Position numbers and translations under genes: made by a program. Shown piece after piece: positions 14,005 to 23,355 of a DNA stretch of 35,133 bases. The DNA lies in NCBI GenBank assembly GCA_016178625.1, contig JACOSX010000176.1:1-35133 (forward strand), in the 5' to 3' direction. Numbering within the stretch: position 1 is the first letter of the stretch; each line of letters begins with the position of its first letter. This DNA comes from Ignavibacteria bacterium. GTDB lineage: Bacteria > Bacteroidota > Ignavibacteria > UBA10030 > SZUA-254. The notes under the pieces are model-generated. The model did not search any database. It had not been told where the DNA came from and worked only from the letters and a program-made list of their open reading frames with translations.

Positions 14005-15054
14005 TCACTTCACAACGCTCACAGTGCCGCCATCTTTAAGATTATTCTGACCAGCAACGACAACTGTCTCACCTTCTGTCAGTCCGTTGAGCACGGTCAA
14101 CCGCGTCCCGAACTCTGAGCCAACGATGATATCCCGTAGACGCGATATCGTCCCGTTGACTACAAAGACTTGCGGCTTCTTGAGGCTGCCGACAAGCGCT
14201 CCGCGAGAAATTGTCAACGCTGGGTCAGCTCCGATGGAAATAAGAGAGACGCGACCAAACATTCCCGCCTTGAGTCTATGGTCTTTATGATTAGCGACCC
14301 CGATTTCAACAGGATACGTGTGCGCTTCATCAGCTTTCGCACTGATGGTTTGAATCCTACCTTCAAATGGGACACCGGGATACACATCCGTTGTCACCTC
14401 AACCTTGTCGCCGATCTTCAGCCTAAAGACATCACTTTCTCCGACATTCAGTTTAACCTTGAGTTTTGAAATGTCCACGACATTTGCCACAACTGTCCCC
14501 GATTGAATGTATGTTCCAACATCCACTGGTCGAGCTGTAACGACGCCGGAGATTGGTGTGGTGATTTTCGTATCTCGCAATTGCCGACGCGCCACGATGT
14601 ACTGCGCTTCGGCGGCTTTAAAGGCAAGACGAGCGGCGTCTACCTGTTGATCGGTCGCCGCCTCTTGCTTTGCGAGCGATTCAAATCGTTCAAGATCTTT
14701 TTTACCTTTTTGGAAGTTCACTTCCGCTGTCTCAAAGCTCGCCTGTTTGAGCTCATCGTCTACCTGTACGATGACTGATCCGGCATCTTTGTAATCTCCA
14801 ACGGTTGCCATCACTGCCACAACTTTCCCTTGTGTTTCCGACACGACAGCGACGTCATTGTTCGCAGCTACTGTTCCAACAAACGAATGAGCATCGGACA
14901 GTCGCTCTCTCGTCACCTTCATGACGGAGACCGGAATAGTTGTGAGGACATCGCTCCTCGCCTTTGCTGCACTGCGCGACTTGTTATACAGCAAAACGCC
15001 GGTGATGACTGCGATGAGTGTGATACCAACCGTTATAATCTTAAGTTTGCTCAT
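14005..15054 (-). CDS. RND efflux periplasmic adaptor (membrane fusion protein)
   Basis: From the ATG at 15054 (AGAGGG about 8 bases upstream) this is 349 residues; an upstream in-frame ATG at 15072 has weaker support. An N-terminal hydrophobic helix (IITVGITLIAVITGVLL) anchors it. A lipoyl/barrel-sandwich half (NNDVAVVSETQGKVVAV) is followed by an alpha-helical hairpin at roughly residues 100-150 and the returning lipoyl half (ITTPISGVVTARPVDVGTYI). Beta-barrel and membrane-proximal domains follow (VEVTTDVYPGVPFEGRI, LTVLNGLTEGETVVVAGQNNL). It bridges the inner-membrane pump and the outer-membrane channel. It lies 56 bases before the pump gene. Confidence 0.94.
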   Translation of the reverse strand: MSKLKIITVGITLIAVITGVLLYNKSRSAAKARSDVLTTIPVSVMKVTRERLSDAHSFVGTVAANNDVAVVSETQGKVVAVMATVGDYKDAGSVIVQVDDELKQASFETAEVNFQKGKKDLERFESLAKQEAATDQQVDAARLAFKAAEAQYIVARRQLRDTKITTPISGVVTARPVDVGTYIQSGTVVANVVDISKLKVKLNVGESDVFRLKIGDKVEVTTDVYPGVPFEGRIQTISAKADEAHTYPVEIGVANHKDHRLKAGMFGRVSLISIGADPALTISRGALVGSLKKPQVFVVNGTISRLRDIIVGSEFGTRLTVLNGLTEGETVVVAGQNNLKDGGTVSVVK

Positions 15055-15115
15055 GGTGTTCCCTCTTCTCATTACCTATCGTTGCACAATAAAGAATAAT
15101 ACTCGATTCACACAT

Positions 15116-16471
15116 TTAGTTAGGCGATTTAGATTCTTTGGCACCGATTGCCTTTTGAAGTCGCGCATCGGCAAGCTCGTAGTCAACAAGAGCTTGAATA
15201 TAGCTCCACTTTGATTGTAATAGGGAGCCTTCAGCATCAAGCAGATCAGAATTCAATGCAACTCCGGATTTAAATTTTTCATTCGTGATGCGATAATTTT
15301 CTTCTGCCTGACTGACTCCTTTCTCTGCAACTGCGATTCTCTCCCTCGAATGATTGAGGTTAAGATAATCTTGCGTGACGTCGAGTGTTATGCCATCTCG
15401 AAGCTGGCTCAGTGCATCCTGACTCTGGGCAAGCTGTGCCTGCGCCTGATTCGTCTGATGAATTGTTGTCCCCCAGTTCCAAATGTCAAGCGAAACCGAT
15501 AGGCTGACATCCCACGTATCTTTGAATTGATCCTCCGCAGGAAAAACGCGCTGGTTGGGGCGCGCATAGTAATAGTTTCCCGTAAGGTAAATTTGAGGGA
15601 ACCACCCTGATCGTGCAAGTGTGAGTGCAGATTCACCCGCCTTCACGCGTAATTCCATTCCTTTCATCTCTGGTCGCAGATTTAGCGCTTTCTGGATCAG
15701 TGCGTTCACTTCACCATGTTCCTTCTCTTGACGTTGGATGCTAGAGGCAAGATCGATTTCTGTGTCAAGCGGAAGACCGATGATATTGTTGAGGGCGATC
15801 ATCGCAAGACGGACACTGTTCTGCGCATCGAGTTGAAGAAGCTGCACATTTGAGAGTTGAACCTCAATTTTGAGAACTTCATTCTTTGTCACAATGCCCT
15901 GTGCGAAGAAATTTTGGGCATCTTTCAGGTGAGCTTTCACCTGGTCGACATTCTCATCGATCACTTTCTTGAACTCATTTGCTTTGTACAAGCTCCAATA
16001 TGCGGTTTGCACATTATAGATGAGATCCGCTTTATCGCGGTGATAATCCTCGGCCGTTGCCTGGGCTGTGTACTCAGCGACGTCCGAACTGCTCTGCAAT
16101 CGGAAGCCAGTGAAGAGTGGTTGCTGTAACGTCAACCGCATATTGTAATTGTTAAAAATCGATTGTGAAACGGTGACCCTATTGGGGATCAATGGAGGAA
16201 ACGGTCCTAAGTCGAATGATGGGACTTCGCTCAATCGCGTATATGAGCCGCCAAGTTTAATTGTCGGAAGGCGTTGAGTATGTACCTCGCTCGATCTGGC
16301 ATCCGCCGCTTGAGTTTTCATCAGTGACGAATGTAAAGCTTTACTGTTCTCTAGTCCAAGTTGAATTGATTGTTCGATCGTGAGTGAGACTTTCTGTTGC
16401 CCGAATGCCATCGGCACAAGGAGCGAGAGTACCAGTAGATATATCAATACCTCGAGAAGTGTTGTTCGCAT
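15116..16471 (-). CDS. TolC-family outer membrane efflux protein
   Basis: The 451-residue protein has a signal peptide (hydrophobic LIYLLVLSLLVPMAFGQ) and two outer-membrane-efflux repeats. Each is helical coiled-coil followed by a strand: SIQLGLENSKALHSSLMKT starts the first, and LNLRPEMKGMELRVKAGESAL the second. Family proteins form trimeric beta-barrels with long periplasmic helices that dock onto the adaptor. It lies between the TetR regulator (86-base gap) and the adaptor (61-base gap) on the same strand, so one transcript is likely. A short hairpin with arms CGGCA/TGCCG around 16541-16556 sits in the gap to the regulator, but lacks a T-run. Confidence 0.93.
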   Translation of the reverse strand: MRTTLLEVLIYLLVLSLLVPMAFGQQKVSLTIEQSIQLGLENSKALHSSLMKTQAADARSSEVHTQRLPTIKLGGSYTRLSEVPSFDLGPFPPLIPNRVTVSQSIFNNYNMRLTLQQPLFTGFRLQSSSDVAEYTAQATAEDYHRDKADLIYNVQTAYWSLYKANEFKKVIDENVDQVKAHLKDAQNFFAQGIVTKNEVLKIEVQLSNVQLLQLDAQNSVRLAMIALNNIIGLPLDTEIDLASSIQRQEKEHGEVNALIQKALNLRPEMKGMELRVKAGESALTLARSGWFPQIYLTGNYYYARPNQRVFPAEDQFKDTWDVSLSVSLDIWNWGTTIHQTNQAQAQLAQSQDALSQLRDGITLDVTQDYLNLNHSRERIAVAEKGVSQAEENYRITNEKFKSGVALNSDLLDAEGSLLQSKWSYIQALVDYELADARLQKAIGAKESKSPN

Positions 16472-16557
16472 AGTTATGGATGGTTTTTATTATCGATTGT
16501 GTGATTGAATCGTCAGAGAGAAATCGTTCTTCTCGCTAATCCGGCAAGCCTGCCGAG

Positions 16558-17172
16558 TCACGGAGAAATGCCGATGTTCTTCATGATATATTCGAATGCT
16601 TTCTGAGCGATAGAAGGAAGATCTTTGGGATCCATCATAGTACAGCGATTACGAAGAATCAATGAGACAACACCGTGCGCCAAGGACCACATGGCAAAGG
16701 TCGCCACATCGATATCGGACTTCTTTATGATACCCGCTCTCATGGAAGCCTCGACATCCCGTTTGAACAAATCATACGAGCGCATGCCAACGTTCCATTC
16801 TTCACTCTCAACAATTTTCTTTGCCGGCCCGCGCATAATAAACATCAGGTTGTAATATTCCGGGTTCTCCAGAGCGAACTTAATATATACTTCACCATGT
16901 TTCCGAAGCCGTTTCTTCGGATCCTTGATGGCAAGGATCTCCTGCTGCCGTTTGTACAGTTCTTCAAATCCCGCGTTGTGGAGAGCGAACAGGATATCAT
17001 CCTTGTCCTTAAAATACAGATAGATCGTCGCCGGGCTGTACTCAATGTTATCTGCGATGCGACGGATGGACACGTTTTGAAACCCCTCTTCAAGAAACAG
17101 TTTCATTGCTGTACTGAGGATTTGTTTCCGCATTTCCTGCTTATTCCGCTCTTTTCGCTCATTTATTCCCAT
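16558..17172 (-). CDS. TetR-family transcriptional repressor of the efflux operon
   Basis: The 204-residue protein has the TetR helix-turn-helix at residues 13-60 (ILSTAMKLFLEEGFQNVSIR, then the recognition helix SPATIYLYFKDKDDIL) and a helical ligand-binding C-terminal domain. It is the first gene of the operon that also encodes the outer membrane channel, adaptor, pump and MBL-fold enzyme. A set of inverted repeats just upstream overlaps the predicted transcription start, which is the classic set-up for autorepression relieved by a pumped ligand. The ligand is not predictable from sequence. Confidence 0.94.
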   Translation of the reverse strand: MGINERKERNKQEMRKQILSTAMKLFLEEGFQNVSIRRIADNIEYSPATIYLYFKDKDDILFALHNAGFEELYKRQQEILAIKDPKKRLRKHGEVYIKFALENPEYYNLMFIMRGPAKKIVESEEWNVGMRSYDLFKRDVEASMRAGIIKKSDIDVATFAMWSLAHGVVSLILRNRCTMMDPKDLPSIAQKAFEYIMKNIGISP

Positions 17173-19143: not shown

Positions 19144-19198
19144 TCATGCCAACCTTCTACCCACATTTCCCGTCCAATAGGAGAAAGAAGGAGACTCG

Positions 19199-19786
19199 GT
19201 GACCGATGAGCAAGTGCTGATCACTCAGGCGCAACGAGGCGACCCGGAGGCATTCCGTGAGCTTGTCGAGCGCTCGAAGATCAACGTATACCGCCTCGCC
19301 TATGATCTGACAGGCAACCATCACGACGCGGAGGACTTATCACAGGAGGTCTTTGTGAAAGCATACCGGGGCCTTCCCAATTTCCGCGGTAACGCGAAGT
19401 GGAGTACATGGCTTTACCGCATTACAACGAACGCCTGCATCGATCACAGACGCTCACAATCGAGAACAACTATGGAGTACAAAGATGACCTTGGTGATGA
19501 CGAAACGACGAGCGAACACAACCATCGGCACAGCGTGTTGAACCCTGACCGTTCAGTAGAGGCAGGCATGATACAAGAGAACATCGAGCGAGCGCTCAGC
19601 CGCCTTGCGCCGCAAGAGCGATCAGTCTTCGTCTTACGACACTATCACGATCTCCCACTGAAGGAGATCGCCGAAACAATGAAGATTGCAGAGGGGACGG
19701 TCAAGTCGTATCTCTTTCGCGCTCTGCAACGACTACAGCGCGAGCTTGCATTCTATAAGAAAGATTTAGGATTGGAGGAACAGTGA
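19199..19786 (+). CDS. ECF-family RNA polymerase sigma factor
   Basis: The GTG start at 19199 is supported by AAGGAG about 6 bases upstream. The 195 residues contain sigma region 2 (YRLAYDLTGNHHDAEDLSQE, FRGNAKWSTWLYRITTNACI) and region 4 (LAPQERSVFVLRHYHDLPLK, IAEGTVKSYLFRALQRL), joined by a short acidic linker and lacking regions 1 and 3, as in RpoE/SigW-type factors. The stop overlaps the start of the zinc-finger anti-sigma gene, the usual pairing. Two exported HEAT proteins follow in the same direction. By family, it redirects polymerase after release from the membrane-bound anti-sigma factor. Confidence 0.95.
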   Translation: MTDEQVLITQAQRGDPEAFRELVERSKINVYRLAYDLTGNHHDAEDLSQEVFVKAYRGLPNFRGNAKWSTWLYRITTNACIDHRRSQSRTTMEYKDDLGDDETTSEHNHRHSVLNPDRSVEAGMIQENIERALSRLAPQERSVFVLRHYHDLPLKEIAETMKIAEGTVKSYLFRALQRLQRELAFYKKDLGLEEQ

Positions 19787-20592
19787 TGATGACGTGCGAA
19801 CAAAGCCGGGAGTTATTCATTGAAGCTCTCTACGATGAGCTTCCCATTGACGTCAAACGTGAATTTGATCAACACCTCGTGTCGTGTGCAAAGTGCGCCA
19901 CAGATTTTCAAAATATGAAAACAACTCTCAAGATTATGGATCAGCGGTCGCGCACAGAACCAGACCAAGCGTATTGGAATAGCTATTGGGATCGACTCAG
20001 TTCAAAGATCGCTGAAGAGAGAGACCCTTCCAAGAAATTCACATGGAGACCAGCTCGGCTACCCGCGTGGGCGTATGGGATTGCTGCGATGTTCCTCATT
20101 GCGATGGGCATCTATCTTGGACGAACATACTTCGGTCAGCATGAACTTTCACAACCGGAGATCGAACATCCGATCGCAACTAACCCCGTGCCATTGATCG
20201 AGGATTCTACAACGACACAGGCACTCGTCTACCTCGAGCGTTCCAAGAATTTGCTTATCGGCTTTGCCAATCGCAGTGAAGATGAATCCACGTCACGTGA
20301 TCTGAGCCATCAGCAAGAAGTCTCACGGCGGCTCATTCAACAAGCAAGCATGCTGAAGACAGCGCTCAATAAACCTGATCAGCAACTCATGCGACAGCTT
20401 ATCCTTGATCTTGAAGTCATTCTTCTCCAGCTTGCGAACATCGAGGTCAAGCGGGGTATCCCTGCTGTAGAACTGGTGAAAAAGGGAATCGATCAGAAAT
20501 CTATTCTTCTCAAGATCAATCTTGAAGAGATGCGCGCTATGGCGCGTCGACCATCTGCGTCATCCGACAAAAAAATCAGAACCACTCTTTAA
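19786..20592 (+). CDS. Membrane anti-sigma factor with ZAS zinc finger
   Basis: GGAGG at 19774-19778 supports the ATG at 19786, which shares one base with the sigma stop codon. A zinc-binding anti-sigma motif occupies residues 4-37: C4, then HLVSCAKC with H30, C34 and C37. A single membrane helix follows at about 98-120 (AWAYGIAAMFLIAMGIYLG). The remaining roughly 150 residues should be periplasmic. They are helical in appearance (LERSKNLLIGFANR, QASMLKTALNKPDQQLMRQL) and contain no recognised sensor fold. By family it sequesters the sigma factor until a signal triggers release. Confidence 0.9.
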   Translation: MMTCEQSRELFIEALYDELPIDVKREFDQHLVSCAKCATDFQNMKTTLKIMDQRSRTEPDQAYWNSYWDRLSSKIAEERDPSKKFTWRPARLPAWAYGIAAMFLIAMGIYLGRTYFGQHELSQPEIEHPIATNPVPLIEDSTTTQALVYLERSKNLLIGFANRSEDESTSRDLSHQQEVSRRLIQQASMLKTALNKPDQQLMRQLILDLEVILLQLANIEVKRGIPAVELVKKGIDQKSILLKINLEEMRAMARRPSASSDKKIRTTL

Positions 20593-20607
20593 TCTCGGAG
20601 AACAACA

Positions 20608-22203
20608 ATGCGTACATCTTATATAACACTGAACCGAATTACTACTCTGGCACTTATCTTCATAGCATCCGGAATCGTGCAGCACTCTCACGTCTGTGCC
20701 CAAGATACTGCGGCAAAAGCGTATGAGAAAGCCTACGATTATATCTTGGACGAGAAGTGGGCAGACGCGCAGAAAGCATTCGCCGACTTCAGTAAGAAAT
20801 TTCCCAAGAGCAATCTGGCTGACGCGGCGCACTACTGGCACTGCTACACTCGGGACAAGCTCGGCGAGGACAAGCAGCGGGTGTTCGAGTGCTACCAAGA
20901 CTTTATAAAATCCTACCCGAAGAGCAAGTGGATAAGCGATGCAAAGTCCAACATGGTGAATCTCGCTTACCAGCTTTCCCGTGAAGGAAAACCGGAGTAC
21001 GAGGCGCTCGTCAAGGGAATGGACAACACAGAAGATGAAGATGTAAAGCTCGCCGCCCTTTACGCGCTCGGAAATATGGGAAGCGAGAAAGCTTTAGCCA
21101 CTGTCATCTCGCTCTACGACCAGACGCCAAGCGACAATCTCCGAAGCAAGATCGTCTACATTCTTGGTAACTTCGATTCACCGGACAGCAAGAAGAAATT
21201 AGAAGAGATCGCAATGAAAGATCGCAGTACCAAAGTGCGGAAAGATGCTATCTATGCCCTTGGGAACAGCGGTGGACCGGAGACAATCGAGGCATTGAAG
21301 AAGGTCATCCGCTCAATCGCGGAGGTTGAAATTCGCACTGCTGCCCTTCACACCCTCGGCAACATGGAGGATGAAGCTGTCGTTGCATTCCTGGGTGAGG
21401 TCGCACGTACCGATGGCGACGCCGAGTTAGCAAAGGCTGCAGCGTATTCTGTCGGCAATATCTCAACAGCCAAAGCATCGTCGGAGTTACAACGAATTAT
21501 GAAGGAAGCGAAGAACATGGAAGTGCGCAAAGCCGCGCTTTACTCACTCGGAAACCAGGGAGGCGATGTAGCCGTCGCTGCGCTCAAGGACGCTGCACTC
21601 AATGACCCAGACATGGAGCTTCGCAAAACCGCGGCACAGTCGCTTGGAAATATTGAAGATTCCGTTGCGGTGAAGGCGCTTGAGGAGATCGCAAAAACCG
21701 GAACTGAACCGAAGACGCAGGAGGCAGCGCTCTACAGTCTCGGAAACATCGGCGGCGAAGAGGCGAAGAGGTTTTTGTTGACCATGGCGCTCTCACACCC
21801 CAACGAAAAGATCGCAAAGATTGCGCTCTTCGCACTTGGAAACCTTACCGGGGGCGAGTCGTCGGAACTGATGCTGGAGATTCTCCGCAAGTCCCAACAC
21901 CCTGAAGTGCGCAAGCAAGCTCTCTATCAGATTGGCAACAGTGGTAATGATCCGGCGGCAGTTGCTACCTTAGGAAAAATTGTGAAGGAGGAGAAGGACC
22001 CCGATCTTCAGCTTGCTGCAATCAATGCACTCGGTAATACGGAGAGCGATGCTGCTGTCTCGATCCTCGTGGATGTGGCAAAGAAAGGTGGAAGTAAAAA
22101 ACTCCGCAGCGCTGCAGTGAACGCGCTCGGTCAGATCGGCACCGACAAAGCCCGCGCTGCTCTACTTGAGATCCTCGACATGAAACCGAAAGGAAAGGAG
22201 TGA
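20608..22203 (+). CDS. Exported TPR + HEAT-repeat protein
   Basis: This 531-residue protein begins with a signal peptide ending near HVCAQ. Residues 30-125 resemble BamD/CpoB-like TPRs (AYDYILDEKWADAQKAFADF, FPKSNLADAAHYWHCY). From about 145 to 530 it is a regular solenoid of about 31-residue HEAT units, each with an AALYSLGN-type core. Such solenoids scaffold protein contacts. Its gene lies 15 bases after the anti-sigma stop and 3 bases before a second HEAT gene, so all four genes are one operon. A role sensing or modulating the sigma/anti-sigma pair is inferred from context only. GGAG precedes the ATG. Confidence 0.88.
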   Translation: MRTSYITLNRITTLALIFIASGIVQHSHVCAQDTAAKAYEKAYDYILDEKWADAQKAFADFSKKFPKSNLADAAHYWHCYTRDKLGEDKQRVFECYQDFIKSYPKSKWISDAKSNMVNLAYQLSREGKPEYEALVKGMDNTEDEDVKLAALYALGNMGSEKALATVISLYDQTPSDNLRSKIVYILGNFDSPDSKKKLEEIAMKDRSTKVRKDAIYALGNSGGPETIEALKKVIRSIAEVEIRTAALHTLGNMEDEAVVAFLGEVARTDGDAELAKAAAYSVGNISTAKASSELQRIMKEAKNMEVRKAALYSLGNQGGDVAVAALKDAALNDPDMELRKTAAQSLGNIEDSVAVKALEEIAKTGTEPKTQEAALYSLGNIGGEEAKRFLLTMALSHPNEKIAKIALFALGNLTGGESSELMLEILRKSQHPEVRKQALYQIGNSGNDPAAVATLGKIVKEEKDPDLQLAAINALGNTESDAAVSILVDVAKKGGSKKLRSAAVNALGQIGTDKARAALLEILDMKPKGKE

Positions 22204-22206
22204 GTC

Positions 22207-23355
22207 ATGATCACACGTGCCCAACTTCTTCTGTTAACAGTAATAGCATTGCTCTTCGTCGCATCGACTGCATATCAACAGTCAGAGAAGGTTGTTCGAC
22301 ACCCTGATTCAAATACACAGCTTATAGATCGCTGGAAATGGGCGCGCGTCGAAGCGGAGAGCAGGAAGTTCAGCAATGGCTACTGGATCGGCTACAGCAT
22401 CCAGCGACTCATGCAAAGGAACTGGTCTATCGGCACGCATTTCTCCGATGAACGCAGAAACCATCCATCCCTTGCTGAGGTGATTACCGGGCAGAAGGAG
22501 GTAGATATCCGTTCTCTGAAGGCATCGGGACAGAATTTGACAATCGTGGGCAACCAGATCATCATCGAAGATGAAACAGGGAGACATGAAAAGGTAATGA
22601 AGGAAATCGGAATCTTGTTTCACTTTCCACGAGATCGCGCTGACCAAACCAATCAAGTTATCGTGAGCAATCTCTCGCTCATTGTTGACCTTGAAGGCGC
22701 TCCGCTTCTCTGGCTTGGTGGCGCCGATGAAGAAGAAAGCGTCGCGTTCCTCCATGATCAGTTCACCAGCTCCCGCTCAGATGAAGTGAAAGAACAACTC
22801 ATTGCTGCAATCGGGCTGCACGAGAAGTCGAAAAAAGTATTTACTACTTTGCGTGAAGCACTCACCGGCTCAGAGACAAACGAGGTTCGTGAGGAGGCGG
22901 CGTTCTGGCTTGGTCAGATGAACACCGACGAGGCACTGAAACTACTTGTACACACCGTGGAGACAGATCGGTCGGATGACATACGAGAGAAGGCAATCTT
23001 TGCCATTAGCCAGATGGAGGGTGAGCTTGCGCTTGACGCACTGATTGGAATTGCACGCAAGAATCCAGACAGCGAGGTTCGCACCAAAGCGATGTTCTGG
23101 CTCGGACAGAAGGCATCAGAGAAAGCGGTGGCAACGTTGCGAGACATCGCATACTCCGAAGAAGAAACTGATGTGCAGAAAAGCGCACTTTTCGCGCTGA
23201 CTCAACTCCCCGATCACACCGGCACGGACGAGCTAATCAAAATAGCGAAGACACATCCAAATCCGAAGGTGAGAAAAGAAGCGATTTTCTGGCTCGGGCA
23301 GTGCGATGATGATCCGCGAGCCCTCGAGACACTAATTGAGATTGTGAAAAACTAA
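22207..23355 (+). CDS. Second exported HEAT-repeat protein
   Basis: A 382-residue protein starting with a signal peptide (LLLLTVIALLFVASTAYQQ). Residues about 30-175 form a distinct N-terminal region (FSNGYWIGYSIQRLM, then FHFPRDRADQTNQVIVSNLS and LLWLGGADEEESVAFL) that I do not recognise. Residues 185-382 are HEAT units of about 31 residues with FWLGQ cores (for example EEAAFWLGQMNTDEALKLLV). The distinct core (FWLGQ versus ALGN in the upstream protein) suggests old duplication followed by separate specialisation. AAGGAG about 6 bases before the ATG supports the start. The operon appears to end near a hairpin at 23396-23430. Confidence 0.88.
   Translation: MITRAQLLLLTVIALLFVASTAYQQSEKVVRHPDSNTQLIDRWKWARVEAESRKFSNGYWIGYSIQRLMQRNWSIGTHFSDERRNHPSLAEVITGQKEVDIRSLKASGQNLTIVGNQIIIEDETGRHEKVMKEIGILFHFPRDRADQTNQVIVSNLSLIVDLEGAPLLWLGGADEEESVAFLHDQFTSSRSDEVKEQLIAAIGLHEKSKKVFTTLREALTGSETNEVREEAAFWLGQMNTDEALKLLVHTVETDRSDDIREKAIFAISQMEGELALDALIGIARKNPDSEVRTKAMFWLGQKASEKAVATLRDIAYSEEETDVQKSALFALTQLPDHTGTDELIKIAKTHPNPKVRKEAIFWLGQCDDDPRALETLIEIVKN

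Follow-up and report, generated by a model that had tools for sequence, protein, structure and literature searches.

Our bioinformatics analyses suggest that a four-gene operon of an Ignavibacteria bacterium encodes an autoregulated envelope-signaling module, in which the first of two exported HEAT-repeat proteins (HEATA) would act as an RseB-like periplasmic partner of a ZAS anti-sigma factor and a probable outer-membrane protein of the DUF5916 family would be the conserved target, a reading to which we assign a probability of roughly 55%. The operon occupies positions 19199-23355 of the window, i.e. the whole stretch of 35,133 nucleotides that was analyzed, which is carried by a draft genome of 3.36 Mb. 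It is ancient and widely shared among bacteria, and the promoter signature common to the operon and to the gene of the probable outer-membrane protein points to an undescribed envelope-sensing circuit.

Gene layout and encoded proteins

All four open reading frames of the ECF, ZAS, HEATA, and HEATB set lie on the forward strand where the preliminary description had placed them, and the gaps that it gave, 15 bases between ZAS and HEATA and 3 bases between HEATA and HEATB, were borne out. Its 1-base overlap between the sigma and ZAS genes holds if ZAS starts at the alternative ATG at 19786 but becomes a 4-base overlap if it starts at the GTG at 19783. The sigma gene (19199..19786, GTG start) encodes a protein of 195 aa with sigma2 and sigma4 domains only (Pfam Sigma70_r2, 2e-21, residues 22-90; Sigma70_r4_2, 4e-18, residues 127-179), which is the domain content of an ECF sigma factor and agrees with the identity first given to it. 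In a sigma-factor tree, it groups with other module sigma factors within a set of 29 (support 99/94) covering many phyla; a second set contains most Acidobacteriota operons and a third the sigma factors found beside ZAS-HEAT fusions, and the nearest sigma factor among those with a named organism comes from an Ignavibacteriae genome.

The second gene (19783..20592) encodes a 269-aa protein whose match to Pfam zf-HC2 (3.6e-4) falls just below the Pfam cut-off, and the profile of its orthologs has RsiW as its best match among solved structures (E 3e-6). The ZAS motif is HisXXXCysXXCys with a fourth Cys or His (PMC4598750); the protein carries HLVSCAKC (H-x3-C-x2-C; 19873..19896), in which H31, C35, and C38 are invariant in 11 orthologs, and most orthologs have an upstream Cys or His. 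The zinc motif, the RsiW match, and a single transmembrane segment predicted by hydropathy (residues about 93-113; 20059..20121) uphold the earlier assignment as a ZAS anti-sigma factor with one membrane helix. About 155 residues follow the helix, close to the roughly 150 that had been given for an unrecognized periplasmic domain, and no Pfam family was found for them; residues about 143-252 are conserved, and the domain YLERSK...DLEVILLQLANIE...KSILLKINLEEMR (20209..20538), conserved in 11 orthologs, co-occurs with a TPR-HEAT gene.

Both downstream genes encode signal-peptide HEAT proteins, as had been described (Pfam HEAT_2, 1e-69 for HEATA and 1e-27 for HEATB), with the HEAT_PBS/HEAT_2 repeats of PBS-lyase-type HEAT proteins. 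HEATA (20608..22203; 531 aa) consists of a signal peptide, a TPR-like domain, and 12 HEAT units by eye (11 by pattern). The HEAT unit is 32 residues long, with a spacing of 32-33 throughout, and not about 31 residues as reported before. The TPR front end attributed to one of the HEAT proteins is the N-terminal domain of HEATA at 20701..21012 (TIGR02795 at residues 36-123), which is recognized in nearly all module HEATA proteins and resembles tol_pal_ybgF (1.3e-10) and YfiO (1.7e-4), although its scores stay under the cut-offs of the BamD/YbgF-type families (YbgF, 41.9 versus 90.1 bits; BamD, 28.5 versus 81.4 bits). HEATB (22207..23355; 382 aa), for which orthologs could be aligned, combines a signal peptide and an N-terminal domain with five regular and about two degenerate HEAT units. 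The FWLGQ core ascribed to its repeats is present but only in alternate units, the others reading F-A-(I/L)-(S/T)-Q, and the two alternate as a two-unit super-repeat over 22897-23352. Its N-terminal region is different from that of HEATA, as had been noted; this unrecognized domain (22285..22803) is predicted by AlphaFold2 to be compact alpha/beta (pLDDT 88, pTM 0.83), and a PDB search for the modeled fold gave no usable match (Foldseek best E 0.12; VIA-align best Z 2.9), which is no evidence of a new fold.

An identity of the HEAT proteins with CpcE or NblB was considered and rejected, the similarity being one of repeats only (NblB, 104 bits versus a cut-off of 300; CpcE, 46 versus 330). The RseB/MucB models of Pfam and NCBIfam matched neither HEATA nor HEATB, which were recognized by HEAT and TPR models; the likeness to RseB proposed for HEATA concerns its mode of action only. 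Because their signal peptides lack a lipobox (none among 20 aligned HEATA and HEATB proteins), we infer that both reside in the periplasm. Elsewhere in the window, a TetR-type regulator adjoins outer-membrane-factor-like and adaptor-like genes that, by eye, belong to an apparent efflux operon on the reverse strand (14005-17172); no Rfam families or tRNAs were found in the window, and a generic scan of it for sigma-70 promoters and terminators remained at shuffle level.

Gene order and HEAT coupling in trans and in cis

Searched for by itself in 60 relatives, HEATB was present in 13 genomes, and around these matches the order ECF-ZAS-HEATA-HEATB was constant on sufficiently complete contigs, except for one rearrangement (L056). 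Scanning with the HEATB alignment, one genome per species, retained 80 loci from KSB1, Calditrichota, Ignavibacteria, Rhodothermota, Gemmatimonadota, Aminicenantes, Terriglobia, Latescibacterota, Zixibacteria, and others. All four genes are present in 50 of the 61 HEATB-seeded loci with at least 3.3 kb upstream, and these 50 are spread over Ignavibacteria/Bacteroidota, KSB1, Calditrichota, Gemmatimonadota, Aminicenantes/Acidobacteriota, and others; the gene order is retained across phyla at about 30-40% HEATB identity. The preliminary description had let the functional link depend on conservation of this order in relatives, and it is indeed kept in many phyla. Of 119 genomes sampled from the phylum to which an Aminicenantes genome belongs, 22 gave a HEATB-like match; the module is thus common but far from universal.

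HEATB is the less constant member, being absent from several operons that have the ZAS periplasmic domain and a TPR-HEAT gene. A search seeded with ZAS covered 198 genomes of the phylum; among the matches listed, a TPR-HEAT gene lay downstream of 9 of 9 ZAS genes with the helical periplasmic domain and of 0 of 21 without it, the flanks of the latter being only about 1.5 kb, so that a distant gene would escape. The same succession occurs at two further loci with this periplasmic domain, one in the window genome (G000:C122; C122:5599-8216) and one in a relative (G008:C6). Where ZAS lacks the helical domain, HEAT_2 repeats are fused behind the membrane helix in 9 of 10 sampled proteins, and such a fusion is also encoded in the window genome (C122:16358-17308). 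From the trans pairing and the fusions it follows that HEAT accompanies the anti-sigma factor as a separate protein (in trans) or as part of it (in cis), and, judged by sequence, the ZAS periplasmic domain has its constant partner in HEATA and not in HEATB. The specialized roles once suggested for the two HEAT proteins stand only insofar as their occurrence and N-terminal domains differ.

The window genome contains a paralogous module (C122:2973-8216; L180) made up of a DUF5916 gene, an ECF gene, a ZAS gene encoding this periplasmic domain, and a gene for a shorter TPR-HEAT protein; HEATB is missing, and the sigma gene is preceded by a similar promoter in which TGTC replaces CGTC. A third module on the same contig (C122:15740-23213; L257) comprises an ECF gene, a ZAS-HEAT fusion, a 385-aa exported protein, a TPR-thioredoxin protein, and a stop-interrupted DUF5916 gene. 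KSB1 genomes (L069, labeled only "bacterium", L072, and L097) have solitary HEATB-like proteins of about 500 aa among MacB/FtsX-like permease genes, with neither sigma factor nor ZAS. At a Latescibacterota locus (L068:4892-10648), HEATB is preceded by genes for a BlaI-type repressor and for an M56 peptidase that carries fused HEAT repeats, and a thioredoxin-like gene comes after HEATB.

Promoter signature and the DUF5916 gene

AAC/CGTC-type promoters are not unique to one ECF sigma factor. A predicted promoter of ECF type, TGCCAACC (-35) and CGTCCAAT (-10) with an N16 spacer, lies 52 nt 5' of the sigma gene (19147..19178, forward strand), a place conserved in most orthologous operons, and it scored above all 9866 control windows with a model built without this site. 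In most operons of the first tree set, the consensus TGYNAACC-N16-CGTC lies 5' of the sigma gene at a distance of about 30-65 nt; there are few matches among Acidobacteriota operons. Across 65 loci, some of which are one genome reached twice, the pattern gave 29 matches versus 4.2 expected in shuffles, with 23 before annotated sigma genes, 2 before frame-broken sigma genes, 2 before unlinked HEAT pairs, and 2 elsewhere. The unlinked HEAT-HEAT pairs (L081 and L088) have no sigma gene nearby, and in both the promoter-like site is 31 nt upstream. The pattern occurred 22 times in 25 genomes versus 4 times for its reversed form; in the window genome alone, two counts gave 6 versus 6 and 5 versus 4, in essence no higher than the reversed control, so that only the site positions are informative there. 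The link between regulators and HEAT genes had also been made to depend on the latter not having promoters of their own, and in the window no motif of the operon type precedes HEATA or HEATB; the unlinked HEAT pairs elsewhere carry the same promoter as the operon. The shared promoter-like sites would be those recognized by this sigma factor.

Beyond the operon, a promoter-like site was found 68-131 nt upstream of a CBM9/DUF5916 gene in all six same-family relatives in which the gene is not behind HEATB (G000, which is the window genome, G002, G003, G007, G008, and G012; control p from <0.0001 to 0.0095), and among these six sites that of the window genome (C66:14360-14387) is the weakest, at p 0.0095. 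Other genomes have the DUF5916 gene directly 3' of HEATB and without a separate site, as co-transcription would predict; G019 is an exception, the gene there being upstream of the operon with no clear site. In about nine genomes or loci other than the six, DUF5916 adjoins the module, and each genome has several DUF5916 genes. The protein has a CBM9-like N-terminal part, and nearly all complete copies end in an aromatic C terminus, K-x-(T/S/A/N)-Y-W or similar; because this C terminus is conserved, DUF5916 is probably an outer-membrane beta-barrel. An AlphaFold2 model from five sequences (pLDDT 29) provided no usable support for a barrel, a PDB sequence search with DUF5916 gave no match, and a literature search on the family found no paper.

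Other genes with related sites were also observed. In a Gemmatimonadota genome (L213; G251), the promoter motif is 68 nt before a DUF4097 (Toastrack) gene. A family of exported, possibly barrel-forming proteins of about 430 aa (DCxxCD...NNVVNPRFG), encoded in the window genome (L286; G000:C105:8073-9353) and at L285, L288, and L290, has promoter-like sites upstream in several relatives; it was set aside as a core target, since some of the -10 parts are GGTC or AGTC and the family may belong to a paralogous sigma factor.

Proposed mechanism, alternatives, and known systems

In the proposed module, the ZAS anti-sigma factor would hold the ECF sigma factor at the membrane, and the TPR-HEAT solenoid of HEATA would most likely bind the helical periplasmic domain of ZAS and gate its release, by analogy with RseB and RseA. 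HEATB, the other exported solenoid, would probably take part in this complex or share its envelope targets. An envelope signal would lead to inactivation of ZAS, probably by proteolysis, upon which the freed sigma factor would transcribe its own operon, thereby rebuilding the brake, as well as the CBM9/DUF5916 gene. We infer the contact of HEATA with ZAS, the release by proteolysis, and the kind of signal that acts; a site-1 protease was not identified.

The HEAT proteins might instead be outputs only, i.e. periplasmic chaperones or scaffolds for outer-membrane proteins such as DUF5916 that are co-induced and make no contact with ZAS. This possible but doubtful alternative would account for the promoter on unlinked HEAT pairs, as effectors would bear, for the existence of HEATB without regulators, and for the resemblance of the HEATA TPR front to YbgF/BamD-type envelope proteins, but contact is the better explanation of the strict pairing of the ZAS domain with TPR-HEAT and of the absence of TPR-HEAT where ZAS itself carries HEAT. 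Cell-surface signaling of the Fec kind, with the DUF5916 barrel as a receptor whose ligand state is relayed via the HEAT proteins to the anti-sigma factor, appears improbable. The CBM9-like N-terminal part of DUF5916 and its position beside several modules, including the paralogous one on C122 of the window genome, would suit a receptor, but no TonB-type plug or receptor domain is reported for it, several DUF5916 genes exist per genome, its AlphaFold2 model failed (pLDDT 29), and the promoter data fit it as a target without making it a sensor. That the genes became neighbors by chance and stayed so through common descent only is scarcely credible, given that the order survives at such low HEATB identity across phyla, that promoter sites occur on unlinked HEAT pairs and DUF5916 genes, and that HEAT is fused to regulators, even if the sigma genes cluster on the tree and the order could be partly inherited.

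Knowledge of ECF-dependent envelope stress signaling comes mainly from Proteobacteria, Firmicutes, and Actinobacteria, and HEAT repeats are usually viewed as intracellular scaffolds. The module offers a concrete and testable candidate for such a pathway in many phyla where genetic tools are scarce, with HEATA as the probable periplasmic partner and DUF5916 as the probable target, and it suggests an exported signaling use of HEAT repeats. More tentatively, and with the odds somewhat against it, HEAT solenoids may constitute a general extracytoplasmic sensing module of diderms, used in trans (ZAS and TPR-HEAT), in cis (ZAS-HEAT fusions), or with M56/BlaR1-type transducers, of which the present branch would control outer-membrane DUF5916 as an envelope stress pathway of FCB/Acidobacteriota in place of the sigma-E of Proteobacteria. 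Sigma/anti-sigma pairs are well known, whereas the arrangement with HEAT partners and the DUF5916 target are absent from the literature searched; that search found no description of an ECF-ZAS-HEAT module and did not extend to the main ECF re-classification, so that the ECF group may have been catalogued earlier.

The sigma-W promoter type, AAC...CGT, is similar to that of the module. Bacillus subtilis sigma-W/RsiW (PrsW, RasP) is also close in that RsiW is the best solved match of the ZAS domain, but no exported HEAT partners are known for it, and it belongs to a Gram-positive organism without a periplasm (PMC4598750), whereas the present bacteria are diderm by lineage. With BlaR1/BlaI (M56 peptidase and repressor) the likeness lies in the Latescibacterota locus L068, where HEATB comes immediately after a BlaI-type repressor and an M56-HEAT fusion; the transducer is different, and the window operon has no such gene. 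Sigma operons linked to Toastrack (DUF4097), Lia, and Psp (PMC11237479) share the envelope-sensing theme, and one Gemmatimonadota DUF4097 gene carries the promoter motif, but no HEAT component was found in the text of PMC11237479 and the window operon has no Toastrack gene. The closest working model, by analogy, is that of RseA and RseB, where the anti-sigma factor is protected from proteolysis by an exported protein bound to it (PMC4598750). Although Escherichia coli RseA is not of the zinc (ZAS) type, RseB is neither a HEAT nor a TPR protein, and, compared with sigma-E, one DUF5916 gene is the only well-supported target here besides the operon, the two systems have in common an ECF sigma factor, a single-pass anti-sigma factor, an exported partner encoded downstream, autoregulation (here predicted), and a role centered on the envelope.
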